41,821 nucleotides of DNA from Lachnospiraceae bacterium (lineage in GTDB: Bacteria; Bacillota; Clostridia; Lachnospirales; Lachnospiraceae), in assembly GCA_024699045.1 (NCBI GenBank), contig JAILQK010000057.1, positions 1 to 41,821 of the forward strand, written 5' to 3'. A program made the position numbers and the translations under genes. The notes beneath the pieces are model-generated. The model was not told the DNA's origin. It worked only from the letters and a program-made list of their open reading frames with translations, and ran no database searches. This document shows positions 12,795-39,365 of this stretch, piece by piece (position 1 is the stretch's first letter; each line of letters opens with the position of its first letter).

Positions 12795-13862
12795 ATGGCA
12801 GCAGGTTCCACTTTCGGTAAAAACTTCAGAGTGACCACTTTCGGAGAATCACATGGTCCGGCGCTGGGATGCGTTATCGACGGATGTCCCGCGGGGATCT
12901 TACTCTCCGTCGAAGATCTGCTCCCCTACATGGACCGCCGCAAGCCCGGACAGTCAAAATTCACGACCGCAAGAAATGAGGACGATGCCCCGGAGATCCT
13001 TTCCGGAGTGTTTGATGGAAAGACTACGGGAACTCCGATAGCGATACTTATACGCAATAAAGACCAGAGATCAAAAGATTACAGTGACATTGCAGAGGTC
13101 TACCGTCCCGGTCACGCCGATTATACGTTTGACCGTAAATTCGGGATCAGAGACTACCGGGGAGGCGGACGTTCCTCCGGCAGAGAGACTGCAGCCAGAG
13201 TGGCCGCTGGCGCCGTAGCCGCAAGATTTCTGGAGCATTACGGGATCAGGGCACATGCCTATACAAAGTCGATCGGACCAGTATCCATGAATTCCTTCGA
13301 TCCCGACGAGGCAAACGACCTGTATCTTCCCGATCACAAAGCCTATCTCGACGCTTCCGCCTATCTTGAAAAGCTTATATCCGGCGGCAACTCGGCAGGA
13401 GGCGTCATCGAATGCATCATAAGCGGTGTCCCCGCAGGACTAGGGGATCCGGTTTTTGACAAGCTTTCGGCTTCACTCGCGCATGCCGTAATGTCGATAG
13501 GGGCGGTAAAAGGTTTTGAGCTTGGCGACGGATTTTCGGTCTGCAACTCTACCGGAACCGAAAACAACGACCCGTTCATTCCTGACGGAAACGGAAATAT
13601 AACAAAAAGCTCCAACCACGCAGGGGGCATACTCGGCGGGATCTCGGACGGTTCGGATATCATATTCCGATGCGCCGTTAAACCGACCGCCTCCATCTCC
13701 TGTCCTCAGCAGACTACGGACAGGAACGGCAACACAAAGGAGCTTCGGATCAAAGGACGGCATGATCCCGTGATCGTCCCTCGGGCAGTGGTGGTCGTAG
13801 AGGCGATGGCAAATCTCACGATAGCGGATGCCCTGATCACTTCAAGAGGCGACAGACTTTGA
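12795..13862 (+). CDS. aroC: Chorismate synthase
   Basis: A 355-residue FMN-dependent enzyme that makes chorismate from EPSP, the last shared step of aromatic amino acid synthesis. The opening FGKNFRVTTFGESHGPALG, RRKPGQSKFTTARNE, GRSSGRETAARVAAGAVA and the C-terminal CRHDP-type segment (IKGRHDPVIVPRAV) are all present. Conserved FMN and EPSP histidines are visible at GESHG and GRHDP. It is monocistronic here, divergent from the PH-domain gene. The ribosome site is weak (GAGA about 14 bases upstream). A 34-bp tandem repeat starts right at its stop codon. Confidence 0.96.
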   Translation: MAAGSTFGKNFRVTTFGESHGPALGCVIDGCPAGILLSVEDLLPYMDRRKPGQSKFTTARNEDDAPEILSGVFDGKTTGTPIAILIRNKDQRSKDYSDIAEVYRPGHADYTFDRKFGIRDYRGGGRSSGRETAARVAAGAVAARFLEHYGIRAHAYTKSIGPVSMNSFDPDEANDLYLPDHKAYLDASAYLEKLISGGNSAGGVIECIISGVPAGLGDPVFDKLSASLAHAVMSIGAVKGFELGDGFSVCNSTGTENNDPFIPDGNGNITKSSNHAGGILGGISDGSDIIFRCAVKPTASISCPQQTTDRNGNTKELRIKGRHDPVIVPRAVVVVEAMANLTIADALITSRGDRL

Positions 13863-13962
13863 TCGCACCCGCACCGTCAGGGCCGGCAGGCACTGATCGC
13901 ACCTGCGACGTCAGGGCCGGCAGGCACTGATCGCACCTGCGACGGCAGGGCCGGCAGGCTCT
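13861..13962. repeat. 34-bp direct tandem repeat, three copies
   Basis: Units at 13861-13894, 13895-13928 and 13929-13962 (consensus begins GATCGCACCTGCGACGTCAG and ends with GGCCGGCAGGCACT) differ by 1-3 bases. The array starts within the aroC stop codon. Each unit holds the palindrome GCCGGC and a potential CTGC/GCAG mini-hairpin. It is followed by a direct repeat of ATGCCGGG (13972 onward). No T-run follows, so this is not a standard terminator. Confidence 0.95.
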
Positions 13963-14030
13963 GAAAAAAAGATGCCGGGCGAAATGCCGGGTCAGGAAAA
14001 CACATAAATCTCAAGGAGAGGAACAAATCT

Positions 14031-18998: not shown

Positions 18999-19043
18999 GG
19001 CGCTTCATATCAAGGCGCTTCATATCAAGGCGCTTCATATCAA
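18999..19043. repeat. 15-bp direct tandem repeat, three copies, spanning a stop codon
   Basis: Three perfect copies of GGCGCTTCATATCAA (18999-19013, 19014-19028, 19029-19043). On the minus strand each unit reads GCC-TTG-ATA-TGA-AGC in the frame of the activase gene, so its final Ala-Leu-Ile-stop is present three times in a row. Only the first stop is used. Confidence 0.95.
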
Positions 19044-19763
19044 GGCGCATCCGATCGCTGCCAGGAACGGACCCTTTTCGACTGTGCGGCATTCACGTTC
19101 TAACGTCTTTGACGCGAACTCCCCTATCCCGGGTATCCTGCTGAGTCCTCCGCTTAAGAGGACAGTCCCGCTCCCGGCTTTGCCAAGAAGCGCCGATGCC
19201 TTCACATAGATCTGATTGATGACTGCTCTTATTATCTCATCCTCGGTATGATTGTCCGAGATAAGCTCAACTATCTCACTCTGGGCAAAGACCGCACACC
19301 CCGAAGACAGCCTTAACGGCTCGATCTCCTCCTCCGAAAGGTCTATATCCTCAAAGCTTTTATTCAAAAGCTCGAGCGTATTCGTAAGAAACATTCCGCT
19401 TCCCGCCGCGCACTTATCGTTAAGAAAAAACTCCTTGAGTTTCCCTTCTTCCTGAACGATCAGCTTTGTATCCTGTCCTCCCACATCAAGGACCGTGCCG
19501 TCACAATTAAGGACGTGATAGCATCCTTTGGCAAGCGCCGTAAGTTCATTTATGTTCCTGAGACCGGCCGCGTTTTTTCTCCCGTACCCGCAGGATACGA
19601 CCTCAGCCCCCGGATACTCCTCATTAAGCGCCGACAGCTTTGCGTCGAAATAATCCCTTTGACGTACCGGTGTCTTTTCGGAAAAGAGCGCCTTGATACT
19701 GCCATCCTCAAGGACGCAGTATTTTGTATAAGTCGATCCGACATCGATCCCTATCCGGTACAT
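19035..19763 (-). CDS. 2-hydroxyacyl-CoA dehydratase activase (HgdC/BadF family ATPase)
   Basis: A 242-residue ASKHA-fold ATPase that, in known systems, uses ATP hydrolysis to push a low-potential electron from a bridging [4Fe-4S] cluster into a dehydratase or benzoyl-CoA-type reductase. Phosphate motifs IGIDVGSTYTKYCVLEDG and LDVGGQDTK are present, and the cluster cysteines are C118 (NDKCAAGSG) and C156 (SSGCAVFAQSEIVELI), one pair per homodimer. Length is at the short end of the family (about 255). It overlaps the upstream dehydratase gene by 13 bp and is the last gene of the six-gene operon. Substrate cannot be inferred from this subunit. Confidence 0.92.
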   Translation of the reverse strand: MYRIGIDVGSTYTKYCVLEDGSIKALFSEKTPVRQRDYFDAKLSALNEEYPGAEVVSCGYGRKNAAGLRNINELTALAKGCYHVLNCDGTVLDVGGQDTKLIVQEEGKLKEFFLNDKCAAGSGMFLTNTLELLNKSFEDIDLSEEEIEPLRLSSGCAVFAQSEIVELISDNHTEDEIIRAVINQIYVKASALLGKAGSGTVLLSGGLSRIPGIGEFASKTLERECRTVEKGPFLAAIGCALI

Positions 19764-20899
19764 ACCGTCTCCTTCAGGAGGGCTATCCTCTCCTTGGCCC
19801 TTTCAACATCCAGATATCTCCTGTCGATCATGTCGATATCAAGCTCGACCTGGGGAAGCGCGACATTCCTTGCGGAAACAAAATCGCACTTGCAGCTTTT
19901 GTTATGGAGAACAACAGCTCCTGCGGCCCCGGAAGCTTTTATGAGCTCCGACAGTCTGCGGTCGCGGCTTGACTGCTTAAGGTTCAGGAAGGTGCGGTCA
20001 TAAGCGTTATATAAACGTTCAAACACATCGTCCCCGCTGTAATCAAGGCTCCACCAGGTTATATAATTCGCTCCCGCGATCCGAAAATCCGACAGGCATT
20101 CCGAGAGATATCTGTCATTGTGATACCACAACGGGTATCCCAGCCAGAAAAGAGGGATCTTCTCTTTATCGGCAGCATCAAGCTTTTCGGTCTCTTCAGC
20201 CATCATTTCATAAAGCTCTGCAGTTTCGGGCCTGCATCTTGCCGTGATCAGGAAATTGATATCATCGAAAAGAGTCGTGGCCTTGATATCTTTGACGGGA
20301 AGATATGAAATGACCTTATTCCAGGCTTCCACACTCCTTCTGCTGTTTTCCGTAAGCTCTTCAAGCTTTGAGAGATCAAGCCGGTTGCCCGAAAGCTCCT
20401 CCATCCGGGAAATAAGCTCCTTATGCTGTAAAGTCACATATTCAAGCGAGGCTTTCGTATCGGATGCTTCTCCGGGATAATCCAGCACGATAAGCGGAAC
20501 CTTATATCTTGACGCGAGTACGTTCCACCAGACCGGAAGCGTATTGCATTGATTGTTCGTCGCTATGAGCACATCGGGCTTTGGCGGGACGCCTCTTGGC
20601 CCCTCCTCGAGATCAAGACAGCCGTTAAAGCATCCGGAATAAGAGCAGCAGTCCGAACAAAGACCGTTCCGGTCACTTTCCTCCAGCAGTTCCTGCTCCT
20701 TTTCACTTGCGGCAATGACCGCCGCGTAGCTTTCCGGATAGTAATACGATATTCCCAAAGCCTCGAGGATCTCAACCGGCGTAAAAGCCGTGACCCAGGC
20801 GACCTTCTTCTCGGGAAGCCTTCCCTTTGCATACTTGGAAAAGTCCCTGTAGTATTCCTTCATCAATCCGGTCTTTATTCTGATGATAGTCTGTGCCAT
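19751..20899 (-). CDS. 2-hydroxyacyl-CoA dehydratase/reductase family subunit, cysteine-rich
   Basis: A 382-residue member of PF06050 (HgdA/B, BcrB/C, DCCP). The fold is marked by PVEILEALGISYYYPESYAA, KPDVLIATNNQCN (C118), VPLIVLDYPGEA, and HNKSCKCDF (C336, C338) followed by LPQVELDIDMIDRRY. Classical subunits hold one [4Fe-4S] cluster on three cysteines. Here the first position is a cluster of five (C81, C84, C85, C90, C94), more than I expect for that family. A second cluster or a double-cubane [8Fe-9S] centre is possible but unproven. AAGGGGAG lies before the start. It is encoded with a partner subunit (37 bp upstream) and the activase (overlapping). The substrate may not be a hydroxyacyl-CoA. 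Confidence 0.85.
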   Translation of the reverse strand: MAQTIIRIKTGLMKEYYRDFSKYAKGRLPEKKVAWVTAFTPVEILEALGISYYYPESYAAVIAASEKEQELLEESDRNGLCSDCCSYSGCFNGCLDLEEGPRGVPPKPDVLIATNNQCNTLPVWWNVLASRYKVPLIVLDYPGEASDTKASLEYVTLQHKELISRMEELSGNRLDLSKLEELTENSRRSVEAWNKVISYLPVKDIKATTLFDDINFLITARCRPETAELYEMMAEETEKLDAADKEKIPLFWLGYPLWYHNDRYLSECLSDFRIAGANYITWWSLDYSGDDVFERLYNAYDRTFLNLKQSSRDRRLSELIKASGAAGAVVLHNKSCKCDFVSARNVALPQVELDIDMIDRRYLDVERAKERIALLKETVCTG

Positions 20900-20936
20900 C
20901 CTTATGTCTCCCCTTTCATCCGGATCCCGTTAAGCA

Positions 20937-21884
20937 TCAAAGCGTATCCGCAAAAGCTTCAAGCGCAAGCGATACCTTTCTGTCATCCTCCGTGTCGTTA
21001 AGCTGAAGCCTGAGCACGGGAACTCCGAGCGCCGCAGCCGCATCTTTATATATACTGTACAGATAATCGTACGGCTCACAGTACTTCTGAGTGATGTAGA
21101 TCACTCCTTTGGCCGAACTGCGTCCGATCTCTTCCATATCCGTTTCCATGATCTGCCGGAAGGAATCCTGTGTGGGCGAAAGCCTCATTGAAAGCATGCT
21201 GCGGGCAATATCAAGAAAAATATCCCCTGAAGGCTTAACCGGTCTGACAGATGCAAGTCTCCCCGACTCCGGAAGCGAATCCCCCACGACCGTAAGTCCC
21301 GCCTCATCGATATGCCCGGCGATCTTTATGTTTGAAAGGAAGGACCCGATAACAAAAACCTTCCTGTCCGAAGCATCGCACTTTCTGATCACGGGTAAGA
21401 CCTCCCGGTCGGACAAAGGCTTTTCCAGCAGTCCGTGGATCGCGCCGAGGTGATCCGCAAAGGAATGACTCTCCCGCTCCTCACAGAGCTTCCTGATACA
21501 GGCATTTCTCCGGTCGATCTTTTCTGCCCTGTCTCTGATGACATCATCCCCGATGCTTATATCAAAATGTTTTTCCAGTGCTTCTTTGTATTCCCTGAAA
21601 GAGGAGGCGAGAAAAGCATCGGCTCCCACAGCCCCTGCGGGCGGGATGCTTATGCCGAAATGAAATTTCCCGCTATCCGAAAGATAACTCGATATGATCC
21701 GGGTGCTGTCACAGGTTCTTGGATAAACCGCGCCGTCGATGCTGTCGTCCTTTAATACCCTCGAAATAAAATCCGAGGCGTAGCCGCAGTAGTGGCTGAT
21801 GTTACGGTCTCCCGTGTACTGTGTAAACCTTACGGTATCGCATATCTGCTCGGGAACAAACCCCGAAAACGATAATATCTTCAT
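20937..21884 (-). CDS. 2-hydroxyacyl-CoA dehydratase/reductase family partner subunit
   Basis: A 315-residue PF06050 protein with the three expected [4Fe-4S] cysteines: C33 in HYCGYASDF, C58 in VYPRTCDSTR, and C269 in TQKYCEPYDY. It is shorter than typical HgdB (about 370), with the N-terminal region trimmed (it starts directly at MKILSFSGFVPEQICDTVRF). With the 382-residue gene it should form a heterodimer served by the activase. It overlaps lplA by 4 bp. Typical substrates of the family are 2-hydroxyglutaryl-, lactoyl- or aryl-lactoyl-CoA; no CoA-transferase gene is present here, unlike most such dehydratase clusters. Confidence 0.82.
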   Translation of the reverse strand: MKILSFSGFVPEQICDTVRFTQYTGDRNISHYCGYASDFISRVLKDDSIDGAVYPRTCDSTRIISSYLSDSGKFHFGISIPPAGAVGADAFLASSFREYKEALEKHFDISIGDDVIRDRAEKIDRRNACIRKLCEERESHSFADHLGAIHGLLEKPLSDREVLPVIRKCDASDRKVFVIGSFLSNIKIAGHIDEAGLTVVGDSLPESGRLASVRPVKPSGDIFLDIARSMLSMRLSPTQDSFRQIMETDMEEIGRSSAKGVIYITQKYCEPYDYLYSIYKDAAAALGVPVLRLQLNDTEDDRKVSLALEAFADTL

Positions 21885-22588
21885 CTCCTGCCCTCATATA
21901 TCCAGATATCGCTTTTATAAAACTCTTCAAGCGCATCCTGTCTTTCTTTATCGATCCTCGCATCAAGCCTGTCGGCTCCGGTCACTTCGATAAATGCCTG
22001 CCTTACCCTGTCAACCGTTATATCATATCCCAGCGAGGACAGGTTTGTCACTCTTGAGGCTATGCTTTTTATATGATTTCTTTCAAGCTTGCTCCTATCG
22101 GGGGTGAGATATTCCGATATCTTTGCAGCATCCGTATCGATAAGGATCGTGCCATGCTGACAGATGTTTTCATTCTCATGATATGTCGCATTTCCCGAGA
22201 TCTTTTTGCCGCTTATCAAAATATCGTTACGCCCGTTGTAATCCGCCTTCAGGCCAAGCCGTTCCATCACCCCTAAGATCAGGGATGTGTAGCTGCAGCA
22301 CTCCCTGTCCTGCTGCTTTGATAAGATTGAGAAATTAAGATTTCCCAGGTCATGATAGACTGCTCCTCCTCCGGAACGTCTTCTTGCGATCCTGCCTCCG
22401 CTCCTGACAAAATCCTCAGCTCTGCACTCGCTGTAGACATTCTGATTCCGGCCTACCACGATCGTATTGTCATTCTGCCACAAAAAAATAACAGCAAGAC
22501 CGGAGGCGGTATATTCCATAAGCTCCTGTTCCGCTGCGAGATTATGATACGGATCCGTGCTGTCCGAGATCACATAACTAAAGCGCAT
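21881..22588 (-). CDS. lplA: Lipoate-protein ligase, single-domain form
   Basis: A 235-residue LplA/LipB/BirA-fold ligase. The lipoate-binding loop RRRSGGGAVYHDLGNLNFS and the catalytic lysine loop NDILISGKKISGNATY are intact. E. coli LplA has about 337 residues; the C-terminal accessory domain required for lipoyl-AMP formation there is missing. It may therefore transfer preformed lipoyl-AMP, work with a separate accessory protein, or act as an octanoyl/lipoyl transferase. It is co-encoded with gcvH and lpd, so the GcvH-like protein is its obvious target. It overlaps lpd by 11 bp and the dehydratase subunit by 4 bp. Confidence 0.88.
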   Translation of the reverse strand: MRFSYVISDSTDPYHNLAAEQELMEYTASGLAVIFLWQNDNTIVVGRNQNVYSECRAEDFVRSGGRIARRRSGGGAVYHDLGNLNFSILSKQQDRECCSYTSLILGVMERLGLKADYNGRNDILISGKKISGNATYHENENICQHGTILIDTDAAKISEYLTPDRSKLERNHIKSIASRVTNLSSLGYDITVDRVRQAFIEVTGADRLDARIDKERQDALEEFYKSDIWIYEGRR

Positions 22589-23867
22589 CGATCTTTTCCG
22601 ACAGATTGCGTAGCGCCCCGGTCACGGCCTCCGAATAACTGGGATGCGGTCTTACGGAATAAAGCATCTCATCAACCGTAAGCCCCCGGTCTATAGCCAG
22701 TGCAAGTTCGGGAACCATATCCCCGGCGCGTTCACACATAAGCTGCGCCCCTATGACCCTGTGAGTTTTGGGATCTGCAACGATCTTGACGAATCCTCTT
22801 TCCCCGGATGAGATAACGGTCCTTGCATTGGAGAGCATGCTCTGCTTTGCGGAAACCGCATTGTCGGCCTCTGCCTCAGTGCAGCCGACGGAAGCCGCCT
22901 CCTGTCCGGCATAGATGCATCTGACCGGAACCGCTTCCGGTCCGACGTTCTCTCCCGCGATATGACGTATTGCCCGTCTTCCCTGCTCCATAGATGTATG
23001 CGCCAGCTTCAGGCTTCCGGACAGCACATCTCCGGCCGCATAGATCCCGGGAGTCGACGTGCATCCGTTCTCATCCGCGACGATCCCTCCGTCCTCGGAG
23101 ATCTCTACAAGCCCCCCGGCAATATCCGGAAGGACCGGAAGTCTTCCGGCCGCAGAAAGAACCGTCTCATCATCCCCGCACTTAATTGCGGTAAGATCGC
23201 AGCCGGTGTTGATCCTGACCCCTTTTGACTTAAGGCTCCGGCTCAGACTTACGGCTATCTCCTTATCCCAACCGCGTAATATCCTTTCTCCGCGGACCGA
23301 TATCGTGACACTGCTTCCAAGCATGCTGAAGATCTCCGCGAATTCCACGGCAACTGTCCCGCCGCCGAGTATATGGAGTTTTTTGGGGATGGTTTTAAGT
23401 TTCAGAAGTTCATCACTGGTTATCGCTCCGGATATCAGCGGCTTTGAGGACCCGGATCCGGTAGCTATAAGGATCCCTGAAGCTTCGAAGCTTTCTCCCC
23501 CGCATCCTACAAGTCCTGCCCCCAAAACCGACGCTTCGCCCTTTATAACAGTGATCCCTTTTCCGGACAGCTCTCCCGTAAGCCCTTCCCGTAATGAGCC
23601 TACGATCTCATTCATCCTTGAAACCATCCTGTTGTGATCGAGCTTAACCCCGTCAAAAGAGATCCCGTCCTGTCCGCAAGTTACCGCATCATGGTATCTT
23701 CCTGCCGCATGAGCCAGGTATTTTGTAGGCACACAGCCTCTGTTAAGGCAGGTTCCTCCAAGCTCTCCATACTCAAACAGTACGACCGACATTCCCCTTG
23801 CCGCCGCCTCGAACGCTGCGGAATAACCGGCCGGGCCGCCTCCTATGACGGCAATATCATATCTCAA
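22578..23867 (-). CDS. Dihydrolipoamide dehydrogenase homologue with NADP-type signature
   Basis: A 429-residue flavoprotein disulfide reductase. It has an FAD motif VIGGGPAGYSAAFEA, redox disulfide C40/C45 in GGTCLNRGCVPTK, a second Rossmann motif, the FAD segment TPGIYAAGDV, and the catalytic His-Glu pair H408/E413 (HPSYSEA). The pyridine-nucleotide motif reads GGGTVAVE, with Ala at the third glycine position, and the next strand ends ISVRGERILRGWD, with R192 and R198 replacing the acidic residue of NAD enzymes. This is the pattern of NADPH-dependent glutathione reductase. It is shorter than usual Lpd (about 460). It is encoded next to its likely substrate, a lipoyl H-protein. Confidence 0.88.
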   Translation of the reverse strand: MRYDIAVIGGGPAGYSAAFEAAARGMSVVLFEYGELGGTCLNRGCVPTKYLAHAAGRYHDAVTCGQDGISFDGVKLDHNRMVSRMNEIVGSLREGLTGELSGKGITVIKGEASVLGAGLVGCGGESFEASGILIATGSGSSKPLISGAITSDELLKLKTIPKKLHILGGGTVAVEFAEIFSMLGSSVTISVRGERILRGWDKEIAVSLSRSLKSKGVRINTGCDLTAIKCGDDETVLSAAGRLPVLPDIAGGLVEISEDGGIVADENGCTSTPGIYAAGDVLSGSLKLAHTSMEQGRRAIRHIAGENVGPEAVPVRCIYAGQEAASVGCTEAEADNAVSAKQSMLSNARTVISSGERGFVKIVADPKTHRVIGAQLMCERAGDMVPELALAIDRGLTVDEMLYSVRPHPSYSEAVTGALRNLSEKIDAL

Positions 23868-24229
23868 AGCTCATCCTTTCGCGAGAGATATTCCTCTTCA
23901 CTCATAAGTCCTCCGGGAAGACCATCGGCTTTTATCCGGATCAGCCAGTTTGAATAAGGATCCTCATTCAAAAGCTCCGGCTCGTCTTCAAGGGCGGTGT
24001 TCACCTCGGTCACCTCTCCCGATGCGGGTGCGATAAGATCGGAAACGGTCTTTATGCTCTCTATGTCTCCGAACCTTTTTCCGGCCTCGACCGTATCCCC
24101 GGCATCCGGGAGATTTACAAACATAACATCTCCCAGCTTCTCCTGCGCATGATCAGTGATCCCGAATGTCAGGATCCCTTCTTCGCCGTTTACCCAGATA
24201 TGAGCCTCGGAATAATATCTTTCACTCAT
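23864..24229 (-). CDS. GcvH-like lipoyl carrier protein
   Basis: A 121-residue lipoyl-domain protein of the glycine-cleavage H type. The lipoylation site is K60 in GDIESIKTVSDL; ITDHAQEKLGDVMFVNLPDAG and the tail segment LLNEDPYSNWLIRIK are conserved. In the glycine cleavage system H shuttles the aminomethyl group among P, T and L proteins, but no gcvP or gcvT is in this operon. A non-canonical role, like the lipoate-binding proteins (LbpA) of the sHdr sulfur-oxidation system, is a real alternative. It is the first gene of the six-gene operon, overlaps lpd by 4 bp, and is preceded by a 36-bp repeat array. Confidence 0.87.
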   Translation of the reverse strand: MSERYYSEAHIWVNGEEGILTFGITDHAQEKLGDVMFVNLPDAGDTVEAGKRFGDIESIKTVSDLIAPASGEVTEVNTALEDEPELLNEDPYSNWLIRIKADGLPGGLMSEEEYLSRKDEL

Positions 24230-24260: not shown

Positions 24261-24350
24261 TCACCGCGGATCTCACCTGTTGTTTTCTTTCATTCCTCAC
24301 CGCGGATCTCACCTGTTGTTTGCTTTCATTCCTCACCGCGGATCAGATTT
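24261..24350. repeat. 36-bp tandem repeat (about 2.5 copies) upstream of the lipoyl operon
   Basis: Units at 24261-24296 and 24297-24332 are identical but for one base; a third, diverging copy starts at 24333. Each unit contains the palindrome CCGCGG and, on the minus strand, two GGTGA boxes about 12 bp apart (GGTGAGATCCGCGGTGA). The array fills the gap between the diguanylate cyclase stop and gcvH, so it lies in the only region where the operon promoter can be. I see no clear -10 box beside it. Confidence 0.9.
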
Positions 24351-31390: not shown

Positions 31391-31433
31391 CTGATCCCGC
31401 ATGCTCTGATCCCGCATGCTCTGATCCCGCATG
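31391..31433. repeat. 15-bp direct tandem repeat, about 2.9 copies
   Basis: CTGATCCCGCATGCT at 31391-31405 and 31406-31420, then CTGATCCCGCATG at 31421-31433. Degenerate traces of CATGAC.CG continue to about 31475. It lies between the end of the esterase gene and the kinase promoter; no function is visible. Confidence 0.92.
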
Positions 31434-31504
31434 ACCCGTTTCCACATGACACGTTCCAACATGACCTGATCCCGCGGATCTTACACTATCATATCCGGAT
31501 AATT

Positions 31505-34402: not shown

Positions 34403-34448
34403 GCCTCTTTTATCTCTGTTTTTTCCAGGCCGCCACACCTTTTGATTC

Positions 34449-34552
34449 TTCAGGTTCTCCGGGTACTGTGTCTTTTTATCCTTCGGTTTCTCCGGGTGCC
34501 GCGCCTTTTTATCCTTCGGTTTTCTCCGGGTGCCGCGCCTTTATTGTCATCC
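34449..34552. repeat. 33-bp tandem repeat, three copies, behind the fructokinase gene
   Basis: Units at 34449-34481, 34482-34514 and a 38-bp variant at 34515-34552 (core TTTCTCCGGGTGCCGCGCCTT). The last unit overlaps the final codons and stop of the fructokinase gene (34547). On the minus strand each copy reads CCCGGAGAAACCGAAGGATAAAAAGG, purine-rich and ribosome-site-like (longest run here split: CCCGGAGAAACC then GAAGGATAAAAAGG). Confidence 0.92.
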
Positions 34553-35699: not shown

Positions 35700-36815
35700 T
35701 CATTTATCACCGGTATCTGTTTTATGTGACAGTATCATCATGGAAAGATGGTTCCCGTATTCCTTTTCCTCATCCCGGCTGAACGACCTCTCCGAAACGG
35801 CTGTCTCAAGGACTGCAAGAGATACGATATCGCATTCCGCAAAAAAATCATATCTTTTACCCGGATAATCGATCGTAAACTCCATCGTATCGGTTTCGGA
35901 AGAATAAGAAATACATATATGCATCCTTGGATCCTCCAGATGTTTTATGAGGTTCTGCTGTACCGTTTCCTCAAAAGCAAGCCGGATATGGTTCGTCATC
36001 AGATACGGGACCTGATTCTTAATGCAATAGGCTTCGATGCTGCCCTGTGCCCCCGGATAATCATAATCCCTTCTGTCTATATCAAATTCAAGCACTTTAA
36101 GCCGCCTTATGAAACGTCTGGTCAGTTCCCTTTCCGGTGCGGTGAATATCTTTTCCGGAGTCCCTTCCTCATAGATCCCGCCTTCATCCATATAGAATAC
36201 CCGGTTGGAGATCGCCCTCGCGAAATCCATCTCATGAGTGACTATCATCATAGTCCTTCCGCTTTTTGCCAGCTCCCGGATCACGGCCTGAACTTCACCG
36301 ACCATCGTGGGATCAAGGGCGCTGGTCGGCTCATCCATAAGGATATACTTAGGATCCATGGCCAGTGTCCTCGCGATCGCGATCCTCTGCTTCTGCCCGC
36401 CCGAAAGCTCATCGGGATAGCTCATGGCTTTTTCCGAAAGGCCTACCATCGCCAAAAGCTCCATGGCCTTATCATAGGCTTCCTGTCTGCTCTTCCCGAG
36501 AAGGTCGACGGGAGCGAGCATTATATTGCCGATAACGGTCAGATGCGGAAACAGGTTAAATGACTGGAATACCATCCCCACCTTCCTGCGGATGGTCTCT
36601 ATATCACACGCAGGATCCGTTATCTCGGCTTCATCTATCCAGATACGTCCTTCGGTCGGTTTTTCCAAAAGATTGATGCAGCGGAGCAGCGTGCTCTTCC
36701 CCTCCCCGGACGGTCCTATCACGGAGATCACGTCGCCGTCATTGATCCGTACGCTTACATCCCTCAATGGGGTGACACCGGGATAAACCTTTTTCAGATG
36801 TTCAATCCTGATCAT
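35700..36815 (-). CDS. Polar amino-acid ABC transporter ATPase with extra C-terminal domain
   Basis: A 371-residue protein. Residues 1-240 form a GlnQ/HisP-type ATPase: Walker A GPSGEGKST (34-42), Q-loop VGMVFQSFNLFPHLTV, signature LSGGQKQRIAIARTLA, Walker B YILMDEPTSALDP, and the H-loop IVTHEMDF. GlnQ proteins normally end near residue 245. Here another 125 residues follow, with the look of a divergent GHKL fold (HIRLAFEETVQQNLIKHL, MHICISYSSETDTMEFTIDY, and YGNHLSMMIL near the end) and no similarity to the NIL domain that I can see. It may sense or regulate transport. It overlaps the permease gene by 14 bp. Confidence 0.9.
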   Translation of the reverse strand: MIRIEHLKKVYPGVTPLRDVSVRINDGDVISVIGPSGEGKSTLLRCINLLEKPTEGRIWIDEAEITDPACDIETIRRKVGMVFQSFNLFPHLTVIGNIMLAPVDLLGKSRQEAYDKAMELLAMVGLSEKAMSYPDELSGGQKQRIAIARTLAMDPKYILMDEPTSALDPTMVGEVQAVIRELAKSGRTMMIVTHEMDFARAISNRVFYMDEGGIYEEGTPEKIFTAPERELTRRFIRRLKVLEFDIDRRDYDYPGAQGSIEAYCIKNQVPYLMTNHIRLAFEETVQQNLIKHLEDPRMHICISYSSETDTMEFTIDYPGKRYDFFAECDIVSLAVLETAVSERSFSRDEEKEYGNHLSMMILSHKTDTGDK

Positions 36816-39081
36816 GAAGCTTCACCCCCTTAAGCATGGCTTCCCGGCCTCTCTTTTTAGGATCGATCTTTATATGTATCCTGTTTACCAGAAATCCGAA
36901 CAAACCCTCCAGTGCAAAATATATGATCGCTATGGCTATCAACGGGAAAAATGCTTCATATGTCCGGCTCCTTACGATATCCCCGATCTTTGTAAGGTCC
37001 TGGACCGCTATATAGCCTACGATGGCCGTTGCCTTGATCAGGCTCACTATCTCCCCCCTGTAGGAATCCATCACGTGGGGCAGGGCCTGCGGCAGTATGA
37101 TCCTGAAAAAAGTATGGTTCACGGAATATCCCAGCGCATAGGCAGCTTCATACTGTCCGGGATCGACTGCGCCGACGCCCACCTTTAAGAGACGGAACAC
37201 CGCCGCGCCAAAAGTAAGTGTAAATGCTATGACAGATACGATGACTCCGCTGATATCCAGATTTCCGAAAATGATATAGTACAGGATCATGAGCAGGACG
37301 ACCATAGGCATGCCCAGGATCAGACGGAATGCGTATCTGGTAACGGTATTTGCAAAGGGATTGCCATTCTTGCATATAAGAAACAGGCCGAATCCCAAAG
37401 CCGTCCCGAAGATAATGGAAAACACCGTTATCTCGAGTGTCGTGATTATCCCGCCCAGGAACATCTTCCAGCGATCTTCCCTGATAAAGTTCTTCTCGAA
37501 GCTTGTGATCACCGATCCCAGGAAGCTGCTTTCATTTCCGGTATCACCGGCTGCCCTTACGATAAGAACGAAGGCTGCCGGAAAATATTCAATGAAATCA
37601 ACCGCCTCCTTCCTCTCATCCGTTACTATGATCGAACCGGCGCCTATTTTAGCCTTTCCTGACTCCACATATGAAAGGATCGCCGAAAACTCCATGCCGA
37701 CAAACTCCACATGGACGTCCATATTCTCGGCCATAAGAAGTATGACTTCATTGTCAAAGCCGATGATCTGTCCGTTCTCCCCTGCGTAGCTCATCGGCTC
37801 AAGAGTATCACAGGCCGCCACCGTTATCGTTCCGTTTTTCCCGGGCCAGTCCTGCTTAGGCAGAACCTTTATGCTCTCATCCGAGCCCGTCCATTTTTCC
37901 CATGCGGCCTGAATCTTTTCCTCAGGGATGGCATCAAATGCCTCCTGCCAATCAGCAAGCTCGGGATCTCCCTTTTCGAAAGCAAATCCAAAAACCCCGT
38001 CCTTTAATGCTTCGGGAAATTGAACCATGTCAGCGTTACGGTTTACCGCAAGCTGTGAGATGGCACTGTTTGTAAGGACCGCATCCGTCTTGCCGGATCT
38101 AAGGGCAAGGAGCATATCCGAGGTGTTATTAAAAAATGTAAATTCTCCCACATCAGGAACCTTGCTGCGCACCAGATCCTCAAAGGGAGCCCCGGTAAGC
38201 ATGGAGACCGTCTTGCCCCCAAGTTCCTCAAATGTCATGTATTCCGGCATGACGGCACTCTCATCACGTACCGCTATCCCGACAGGTAATTCAAAAAGAT
38301 CCTCGGTAAACGGCATCGCCTCCGCCCTTTCCGGTGTCACATTAAGCTCCGACATGGCGCAGTCGACATCCCCTGCTTTAGTCGCATCGACAAGCCCCCG
38401 AAAATCATAGACCTTAAACTCAAGATCCGCATCAAGCCACTTGGCAAAGCGATATGCAAGCTCGATATCATAACCGGTAAGCTGCGTATCTTTATAATAA
38501 CTGAACGGCGGCACAAGTCCCGTAGTGCCGACCCTAAGATGATATCTGGGGTTCTCTGAAAGAGTGATGTCCGGAAATGTTTCATCATTTTTGAGGACCC
38601 ATCGCTCATACATATCGTCAAGCGTTCCGTCCGCCTTTGATTCGCGTATGAAGTCATTGAGCCTGTCTTTCAGATCCGGAAGGGAACTCTTGGGCGATAT
38701 TCCGACCGCAATATGCACAGTCTCATCCATGTTCTCATCAAGCAGTCTGATCCCCTGACATCCATTATCGATCGCAAGCTGCATCTGGTCCCGTTCGAAA
38801 ACATAGGCATCTATCTTGCCCTGGGCGAGCGCCGGATATCCGTTGATATGATTCATATAGACGCGTTTGGCTTTGGGAAGCTCCTTCTCCACTATCTGCT
38901 CGGCAACTCCACCTTCGCCCACGCCCACACGGACATCCTCATGGTTCAGGTCCTCCTTAGTGGTAATGGTCTTCCCGTTATCCGCATATACGTCCGAGAC
39001 ACTGAGCAATGCGATAAAAAAACAAATTAATACTCCCGTGATCACCTTTGTCCGGATCATATCTCCAGTCTTAACTGACAT
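36802..39081 (-). CDS. Amino-acid ABC transporter permease fused to substrate-binding domains
   Basis: A 759-residue fusion. A signal-like segment (about 8-33) leads to external SBP_bac_3-type sequence: a second-lobe half domain (41-165), a complete binding domain (180-400; LRVGTTGLVPPFSYYKDTQL, GYDIELAYRFAKW), and a first-lobe half domain (417-512). A BPD permease (540-735) follows, with the EAA loop EAAYALGYSVNHTFFRIILP that docks the ATPase. Fusions of binding domains to permeases (GlnPH type) are known; the half-full-half order is unusual. A second Met (39063) directly precedes the signal-like region and has GGAG close by, so it may be the true start. Substrate: polar amino acids, unspecified. 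Confidence 0.9.
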   Translation of the reverse strand: MSVKTGDMIRTKVITGVLICFFIALLSVSDVYADNGKTITTKEDLNHEDVRVGVGEGGVAEQIVEKELPKAKRVYMNHINGYPALAQGKIDAYVFERDQMQLAIDNGCQGIRLLDENMDETVHIAVGISPKSSLPDLKDRLNDFIRESKADGTLDDMYERWVLKNDETFPDITLSENPRYHLRVGTTGLVPPFSYYKDTQLTGYDIELAYRFAKWLDADLEFKVYDFRGLVDATKAGDVDCAMSELNVTPERAEAMPFTEDLFELPVGIAVRDESAVMPEYMTFEELGGKTVSMLTGAPFEDLVRSKVPDVGEFTFFNNTSDMLLALRSGKTDAVLTNSAISQLAVNRNADMVQFPEALKDGVFGFAFEKGDPELADWQEAFDAIPEEKIQAAWEKWTGSDESIKVLPKQDWPGKNGTITVAACDTLEPMSYAGENGQIIGFDNEVILLMAENMDVHVEFVGMEFSAILSYVESGKAKIGAGSIIVTDERKEAVDFIEYFPAAFVLIVRAAGDTGNESSFLGSVITSFEKNFIREDRWKMFLGGIITTLEITVFSIIFGTALGFGLFLICKNGNPFANTVTRYAFRLILGMPMVVLLMILYYIIFGNLDISGVIVSVIAFTLTFGAAVFRLLKVGVGAVDPGQYEAAYALGYSVNHTFFRIILPQALPHVMDSYRGEIVSLIKATAIVGYIAVQDLTKIGDIVRSRTYEAFFPLIAIAIIYFALEGLFGFLVNRIHIKIDPKKRGREAMLKGVKLHDQD

Positions 39082-39131: not shown

Positions 39132-39175
39132 ATATTGAAAGATTTTATAAGATATATCCGGCAGATAGATATTAT

Positions 39176-39365
39176 CTGATAGATCTGTCTGATAGATCCT
39201 GTCTGACAGGTCTGTCTGACAGGTCTGTCTGATAGATCCTGTCTGACAGGTCTGTCTGATAGATCCTGTCTGATAGATCCTGTCTGATAGATCCTGTCTG
39301 ATAGATCCTGTCTGATAGATCCTGTCTGATAGGTCTGTCTGACAGATATTGTCAAATAGATCTTC
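39176..39365. repeat. 13/14-bp tandem repeat, about 14 copies, in a divergent promoter region
   Basis: Units alternate between CTGATAGATCCTGT (14 bp) and CTGACAGGTCTGT (13 bp); five consecutive 14-bp units lie at 39256-39325. Where units meet they create CCTGTC-T-GACAGG, a near-perfect inverted repeat. The mixed unit length rules out coding. The array fills much of the 476-bp gap (39082-39557) between two divergent ABC transporters, lying between the promoter at 39124 and that at 39498. The rest of the gap (39366-39497) is A/T-rich with no gene. Confidence 0.95.

Follow-up and report, generated by a model that had tools for sequence, protein, structure and literature searches.

A conserved six-gene set of Clostridia links a lipoyl H-protein to a HadBC-like enzyme, suggesting a role in carrier-bound acyl chemistry

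Classical 2-hydroxyacyl-CoA dehydratases recycle their electron, and the genes of enzymes of the type of (R)-2-hydroxyisocaproyl-CoA dehydratase (HadBC), a PF06050 heterodimer served by a BadF-type activase, are linked to a CoA-transferase gene. According to an excerpt of a review (PMC11574389), activases deliver electrons to the dehydratase one at a time and spend ATP in doing so. GcvH homologues are described outside glycine cleavage in two systems: in sHdr-LbpA, a GcvH homologue with its own lipoylation genes lies beside a redox enzyme (excerpt of PMC10332631), and in the SirTM operon of staphylococci and streptococci a non-canonical GcvH (GcvH-L) is accompanied by a dedicated LplA (LplA2) (excerpt of PMC4518038). 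Here we describe a set of six genes in which a GcvH-like lipoyl H-protein, a homologue of dihydrolipoamide dehydrogenase (Lpd) and a lipoate-protein ligase (LplA) are encoded together with a HadBC-like PF06050 heterodimer and its activase. It lies in a 41,821-nucleotide stretch of DNA (the window), contig JAILQK010000057.1 of a 2.63 Mb metagenome-assembled genome (MAG), 80.85% complete, of a Lachnospiraceae bacterium (GCA_024699045.1). The families of the parts are known; their combination and its acyl carrier protein (ACP) setting appear to be new, and our searches of open papers (PMC) found no published description of this gene combination.

In the window, the set consists of six minus-strand open reading frames (ORFs) at 24229–19035, in the order gcvH, lpd, lplA, small PF06050 subunit, large PF06050 subunit and activase. 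A six-gene operon at this span, proposed in an earlier note on this DNA, is borne out by the Pfam and NCBIfam families and by the junctions computed from the ORF coordinates, four of which overlap (by 4, 11, 4 and 13 bp) while the fifth is a 37-bp gap. When a profile built from the small subunits of the window and of one relative from the same genus was searched against a collection of species genomes, it found 44 related loci in 41 genomes of Clostridia, one of them (L010) being the contig of that same relative. All six genes are present in 32 of the 44 loci and 8 of the other 12 run into a contig edge within 150 bp of the cassette, so that 32 of the 36 loci not cut near the cassette are complete. 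The gene set is thus real and conserved. An arrangement unique to this strain, the outcome that would have spoken against the earlier note, is ruled out by the 44 loci. The carriers are labelled as Lachnospiraceae, Oscillospiraceae, Ruminococcaceae and other Clostridia, many come from rumen samples, and they include the isolate Eubacterium plexicaudatum ASF492. In the locus of the latter (L053:9474-10004) the called lplA frame has 176 aa, against 235 aa in the window. Single-linkage clustering of 43 large subunits gave 26 groups at 85% identity and 21 at 75%.

Four gene orders were found (A and B being the PF06050 subunits and act the activase): gcvH-lpd-lplA-A-B-act (e.g. the window, L010 and L053), A-B-act-gcvH-lplA-lpd (e.g. 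L030 and L038), A-B-act-gcvH-lpd-lplA (L018) and gcvH-lpd-A-B-act-lplA (L050). That the set stays together across four rearranged orders argues for one function, and for the six genes forming one functional unit. In the tree of large subunits, the cassettes with reversed order (A-B-act first) fall into two separate clades, L030–L037, L041 and L044 in one and L023, L026 and L038–L052 in the other. The set is rare in the order: 100 of 392 sampled genomes match the small-subunit profile in some way, with a full match in two (452 and 488 bits) and the next best at 68 bits. Within the genus it occurs in 1 of 47 other genomes.

Counts over carriers refer to 42 genomes (the source genome of the window, G024 and 40 others), mostly MAGs, with completeness given for the source genome and G024; L010 is entered as G024, and L028 and L048 are omitted as they share genomes with L027 and L038, respectively. 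Conserved positions were taken from protein sets from which length filters dropped short or split frames; alignment A4 covers the window and 39 of the 44 loci, and alignment A5 the window and 32.

The H-protein (23864..24229, minus strand, like the whole operon; 121 aa) matches GCV_H (PF01597) with 126 bits and TIGR00527 with 123 bits, the latter above cut-off, and its predicted attachment lysine (K60 within ESIKTVSD) is kept in at least 95% of 39 rows. LplA (21881..22588; 235 aa; LplA-B_cat PF21948, 188 bits) is a single-domain ligase that covers positions 2–240 of the 328 of TIGR00545 at 240.6 bits, under the cut-off of 280, the C-terminal part of the model being missing. Although the GcvH and Lpd homologues and the lipoyl lysine recall glycine cleavage, the usual clients of a lipoyl protein are scarce in the carriers. 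GcvP exceeds 400 bits in just 2 of 42 (two more pass the cut-off through short partial matches alone, and any match at E<=0.001 was found in 10), and the E2 of 2-oxoacid dehydrogenases occurs in 4, two of them fragments. LipA was above its 310-bit cut-off in none of the 42 (weak matches in 26, the best at 36.5 bits), no search being aimed at LipS1/LipS2; 10 of 14 control genomes pass the same cut-off. With GcvP and E2 rare and LipA below cut-off, the H-protein is mostly without its usual partner. The lipoyl machinery appears to be dedicated to the gene set, and the carriers would scavenge lipoate. As so few carriers have E2, we rejected the idea that the set mainly serves to pass lipoate on to E2 proteins.

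H-protein matches above 80 bits were found in 40 of 43 genomes (G455 in this count has the same coordinates as G108 and is apparently the same genome); in the three without, G114, G126 and G134, the loci are cut short by contig ends. One branch (support 91/80; 92% of 200 bootstrap trees) in a tree of 71 H-proteins (129 columns) divides 39 operon proteins from 32 reference GcvH, namely two H-proteins linked to gcvP, from carriers G112 and G132, plus 30 best-hit loci of a search of the phylum, so that gcvP linkage is known for 2 of the 32. The window protein groups with other operon H-proteins in a set of 20 (100/98). The 19 H-proteins of reversed-order cassettes (L018 excepted) are nearer the reference side, in a set of 51 rows (100/98), and the tree thus does not establish one origin for all operon H-proteins. 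These reversed-order H-proteins, again without L018, come together weakly (91/62) on the reference side even though their large subunits form two clades; the lipoyl half may have been exchanged between cassettes. A remnant of glycine cleavage was rejected on the rarity of GcvP, the H-protein census and the tree, no search being aimed at GcvT. In the source genome, the operon protein is the sole full-length H-protein, yet a GcvP search of this incomplete MAG gave no match, in line with the absence of gcvP reported in the earlier note, and the protein groups apart from the 32 reference GcvH. The note's central proposal, a lipoyl system tied to a PF06050 enzyme and activase outside glycine cleavage, is supported by the gene linkage, and what it lacked was the acyl-carrier context that follows.

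According to the literature, FkbH proteins charge a small ACP with D-glycerate derived from 1,3-bisphosphoglycerate. Clustering of the neighbours of the cassettes brought out FkbH-like proteins (FkbH_N, 219 bits), ACPs (PP-binding, 32 bits) and MBOAT acyltransferases (MBOAT_2, 26 bits), besides SGNH-like genes judged so by reading, with no Pfam match. FkbH and ACP genes lie within 7.5 kb of the cassette in 22 of 44 loci, on its strand in every case, and in 18 of the 28 loci with at least 7 kb of upstream sequence. FkbH is at most 262 bp from the cassette in 13 loci and ACP at most 16 bp from its first gene in 12. FkbH was found in 37 of 42 carriers compared with 69 of 392 genomes of the order above cut-off (Fisher p ~1e-20, uncorrected for kinship and with carriers from more than one order). 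In the five carriers that lack it, the contig extends 2 to 1969 bp upstream of the locus, and the absence may reflect a gap. MBOAT genes occur in 17 of 44 loci; other loci carry a hexapeptide transferase with a DegT aminotransferase (L012 and L047), NeuB (L029) or a PglD-like transferase (L053), and a MaoC hydratase and a short-chain dehydrogenase/reductase (SDR) stand between ACP and MBOAT in L026/L101 and L104 (MaoC was profile-scanned in L026 alone, the SDR through one member of its cluster). Such locus-to-locus differences in the genes that would act after the acyl-ACP fit one common acyl donor that serves several kinds of sugar acylation. ACP and MBOAT were also found together in 16 of 20 FkbH regions taken from 18 of the 37 FkbH-bearing carriers, the cassette being adjacent in L101 and L102 and otherwise outside the region or on another contig. 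In the source genome, FkbH and a free ACP are present on contig C201 with an MBOAT and an AlgX-like protein. A second FkbH of this genome and of G024 (L086 and L087) has an apparently shared neighbourhood with no ACP called beside it.

The FkbH, ACP and acyltransferase neighbours suggest that the substrate is bound to ACP and not to CoA. An unlikely alternative is that the enzyme acts on a CoA ester or some other substrate and that the FkbH-ACP-acyltransferase genes merely share glycan islands with the cassette. It would account for the lack of an adjacent FkbH in 10 of the 28 loci whose upstream sequence is at least 7 kb long, and for the finding that the 10 other scanned proteins of the window include no FkbH, ACP or glycan acyltransferase. 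On the other hand, each of these ten loci lies in a genome that has FkbH elsewhere, and wherever FkbH and ACP are linked (22 loci) they share the strand of the cassette. Less probable still, in our judgment, is that the lipoyl arm of the H-protein itself carries the acyl substrate, as in E2 proteins and H-proteins, with Lpd just keeping the arm reduced and loadable. H-proteins do normally carry intermediates, and the ACP genes abutting the cassette in 12 loci could be read in this way, but the set holds no obvious gene for loading or unloading the arm and a separate ACP is already present at the loci.

The described lipoyl systems outside glycine cleavage appear to differ from the cassette in their partners. 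There was no sHdr among the 16 scanned window proteins (the related loci were not scanned for it), and the linked genes here are those of acyl carriers and glycans. For the SirTM operon, the excerpt of PMC4518038 names a sirtuin, a macrodomain protein, a luciferase-like and an old yellow enzyme (OYE)-type protein as partners, and in that excerpt no PF06050 enzyme or activase is named. We consider it very improbable that the cassette is a thiol or oxidative-stress system of this kind, in which the PF06050 protein would be a reductase for repair: the theme of a GcvH-like protein with LplA outside glycine cleavage is shared (PMC4518038, same excerpt), but neither sirtuin nor macrodomain was found in the 16 scanned window proteins (the related loci were not scanned with those models), and the neighbours are biosynthetic acyl-ACP genes.

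The large PF06050 subunit (19751..20899; 382 aa; HGD-D PF06050, 131 bits), predicted to be catalytic, has HadB (3o3m_A) as its best solved match by sequence (E 6e-42) and by Foldseek (4.3e-24; model pLDDT 89.3). For the small subunit (20937..21884; 315 aa; HGD-D PF06050, 89 bits), which is HadC/BzdN-like and shorter than its HadBC counterpart (385 aa), the best solved sequence match is HadC (3o3m_B, E 1.9e-22), and Foldseek with a model of pLDDT 92.3 puts BzdN (8s02_B, 1.3e-17) first and 3o3m_B second (1.3e-16). C85, C118 and C336 of the large subunit, its predicted [4Fe-4S] ligands, align with HadB Cys84, Cys117 and Cys346, which we take to be the active-site cluster ligands. The ATP-driven activase, or archerase (19035..19763; 242 aa; BcrAD_BadFG, 94 bits; TIGR00241, 153.6 bits, above the cut-off of 125.4), has C118 and C156, presumably ligands of the bridging cluster, in at least 95% of 42 rows. 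The features of a HadBC-type enzyme (two PF06050 subunits, a BadF-type activase and three active-site cluster cysteines) are thus present. Unlike HadBC, however, this enzyme is linked to a lipoyl carrier, Lpd and LplA, and often to FkbH and ACP.

Class I benzoyl-CoA reductase (BzdNO) and double-cubane cluster proteins (DCCP) are similar in fold, activase type and the site residues of BzdO, given in an excerpt of PMC11971306 as Cys95, Cys128, Trp46, Glu65, Tyr97, Cys380 and His131. The first five align with C85, C118, W35, E56 and Y87 (the sequence alignment stops before BzdO Cys380), and W35, E56, C85, Y87, C118 and C336 are present in 43 of 43 large-subunit rows; in contrast, the position of BzdO His131 is Leu121 in all 43. 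For the adenosine part of CoA, PMC11971306 gives helices of BzdNO but few contacting residues. Two of the six cysteines of the double-cubane [8Fe-9S] cluster are also replaced, BzdN Cys263 and Cys293 corresponding to P205 and S236 in the window and to cysteine in 0 of 40 rows, and a double-cubane reductase was rejected on this ground. The small subunit has its predicted cluster ligands C33, C58 and C269, along with a conserved C15, in at least 95% of 41 rows. The large subunit has four extra invariant cysteines, C84, C90, C222 and C338 (43/43 rows), at positions occupied in HadB by Leu, Thr, Gly and Leu, respectively; C84, C90 and C338 are close in sequence to the cluster ligands, and the four could serve as a thiol relay towards the lipoyl arm.

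The likeness to HadBC has to be weighed with a redox-neutral dehydration in mind, in which glyceryl-ACP would be converted into 3-hydroxyacryloyl (3-oxopropionyl) ACP with its electron recycled, the lipoyl line would provide the starter electron, and the SDR and MaoC proteins, where present, would finish the acyl group. HadBC being the best solved sequence match of both subunits, with HadB also the best by fold for the large one, is in keeping with this, as are the leucine in place of BzdO His131 and the MaoC-like and SDR genes between ACP and MBOAT in L101 and L104. However, a mere starter electron leaves unexplained why Lpd and the lipoyl carrier are linked in 32 of 36 uncut loci, and it does not explain the extra cysteines at 84, 90, 222 and 338 either. 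We regard this version as rather doubtful.

Lpd (22578..23867; 429 aa, TTG start; Pyr_redox_2, 187 bits; 327 bits against TIGR01350, under the cut-off of 408.8) has a C40/C45 redox pair. The window protein, like those of gcvH-first cassettes in the alignment, shows the R192/R198 pattern of glutathione reductase, whereas most reversed-order cassettes (not L018, L023, L026 and L043) have E191; the assignment of these residues to NADPH and NAD, respectively, is our assumption from glutathione reductase. The earlier proposal that NADPH reduces Lpd therefore agrees with the motif of window-type proteins but does not extend to most reversed-order cassettes, and NADPH as the general donor was rejected; the constant feature of the cassettes is the lipoamide dehydrogenase, not its nucleotide. 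Two additional cysteines in the dimerisation domain, C317 and C378, are kept in 95% or more of 34 rows, which include proteins of the NADPH type as well as the NAD type. Since classical dehydratases recycle their electron and an NAD(P)H line is linked here, the gene set suggests that electrons are consumed in each turnover.

The reading that we favour, tentatively and at somewhat less than even chances, is that the HadBC-like enzyme α-dehydroxylates glyceryl-ACP with electrons that pass from NAD(P)H through Lpd and the lipoyl H-protein, and that the product acylates glycans. FkbH, whose gene lies close to the cassette in some genomes and apart from it in others, would make glyceryl-ACP, a 2-hydroxyacyl thioester, as its observed co-occurrence with the set leads us to propose. 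The PF06050 heterodimer, fired by the activase, would strip the α-hydroxyl at its [4Fe-4S] site by way of a ketyl radical; the fold and the site residues are assigned by comparison, and the substrate is the one implied by the neighbours. NAD(P)H, Lpd and the lipoyl H-protein, whose genes are linked, would feed the enzyme in that sequence, with LplA charging the H-protein with presumably scavenged lipoate. With electrons spent at each turnover, the product would be 3-hydroxypropionyl-ACP, and the linked MBOAT or hexapeptide acyltransferases may transfer its acyl group to surface sugars; a literature search for 3-hydroxypropanoyl sugars found nothing relevant in open papers. In the tetronate and methoxymalonate pathways, by contrast, the glyceryl-ACP of FkbH and ACP is oxidised or condensed. 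The stricter statement that, in lipoate-scavenging Clostridia, NAD(P)H electrons delivered by the lipoyl H-protein drive reductive α-dehydroxylation of ACP-bound glycerate to a 3-hydroxypropionyl or related C3 acyl group for glycans we regard as possible but doubtful. The NAD(P)H line favours net reduction and the HadBC-like site without a double cubane favours the opposite, which is why the reductive and redox-neutral readings are weighted separately.

Several observations weigh against the favoured reading. As the enzyme is nearer to HadBC than to benzoyl-CoA reductase and has lost two double-cubane cysteines, redox-neutral dehydration fits at least as well as net reduction, and as a reductant for an activase a lipoyl group is modest. 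Of the loci not cut near the cassette, four lack genes of the set: gcvH, lpd and lplA are missing from L025, lpd and lplA from L019, lplA from L023 and lpd from L047. FkbH is above cut-off in 50 of 99 relatives, including 46 of 48 genomes of the genus itself, where its presence thus says little, and in the source genome the FkbH, ACP and MBOAT genes are on a different contig from the cassette. Among 12 FkbH regions of non-carriers, ACP was found in 10, MBOAT in 8 and cassette genes in none, so FkbH-ACP is a common module to which the cassette is an addition. Finally, the carriers being mostly MAGs, gene absences in them are soft.

As regards L025, the 7.2-kb contig of genome G112 on which the PF06050 subunits and activase lie without gcvH, lpd and lplA, the sole GcvH match of this genome is the gcvP-linked one. 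In the window, the upstream neighbour of the operon is diguanylate cyclase-like and the downstream one glycosidase-like, both judged from translations and not by profile scan. Between the former and gcvH there is a 36-bp tandem repeat (24261–24344; 2.3 copies, 97% matches), and further short repeat arrays lie at 13860–13964, 18999–19048, 31391–31466, 34438–34542 and 39140–39362. The window contains no tRNA, and neither promoter-like sites (10, compared with 6.2 in shuffles, sd 2.3) nor terminator-like sites (4, compared with 5.8, sd 2.1) gave a clear signal. A single 759-aa protein at 36802–39081 combines amino-acid binding domains with an ABC permease domain.

If the favoured reading is true, this would be a new lipoate-dependent system beside the 2-oxoacid dehydrogenases, glycine cleavage and sHdr, and a new use for both lipoic acid and archerase-driven radical chemistry. 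The 2-hydroxyacyl-CoA dehydratase family would extend from CoA-based fermentation to ACP-based glycan biosynthesis, and gut bacteria without LipA would have a clear reason to scavenge lipoate. Whether a dithiol carrier can feed an ATP-driven one-electron activase would become a testable question. In the Clostridia that have it, many of them gut-derived, the set probably reshapes small carrier-protein-bound acids before they decorate cell-surface sugars.

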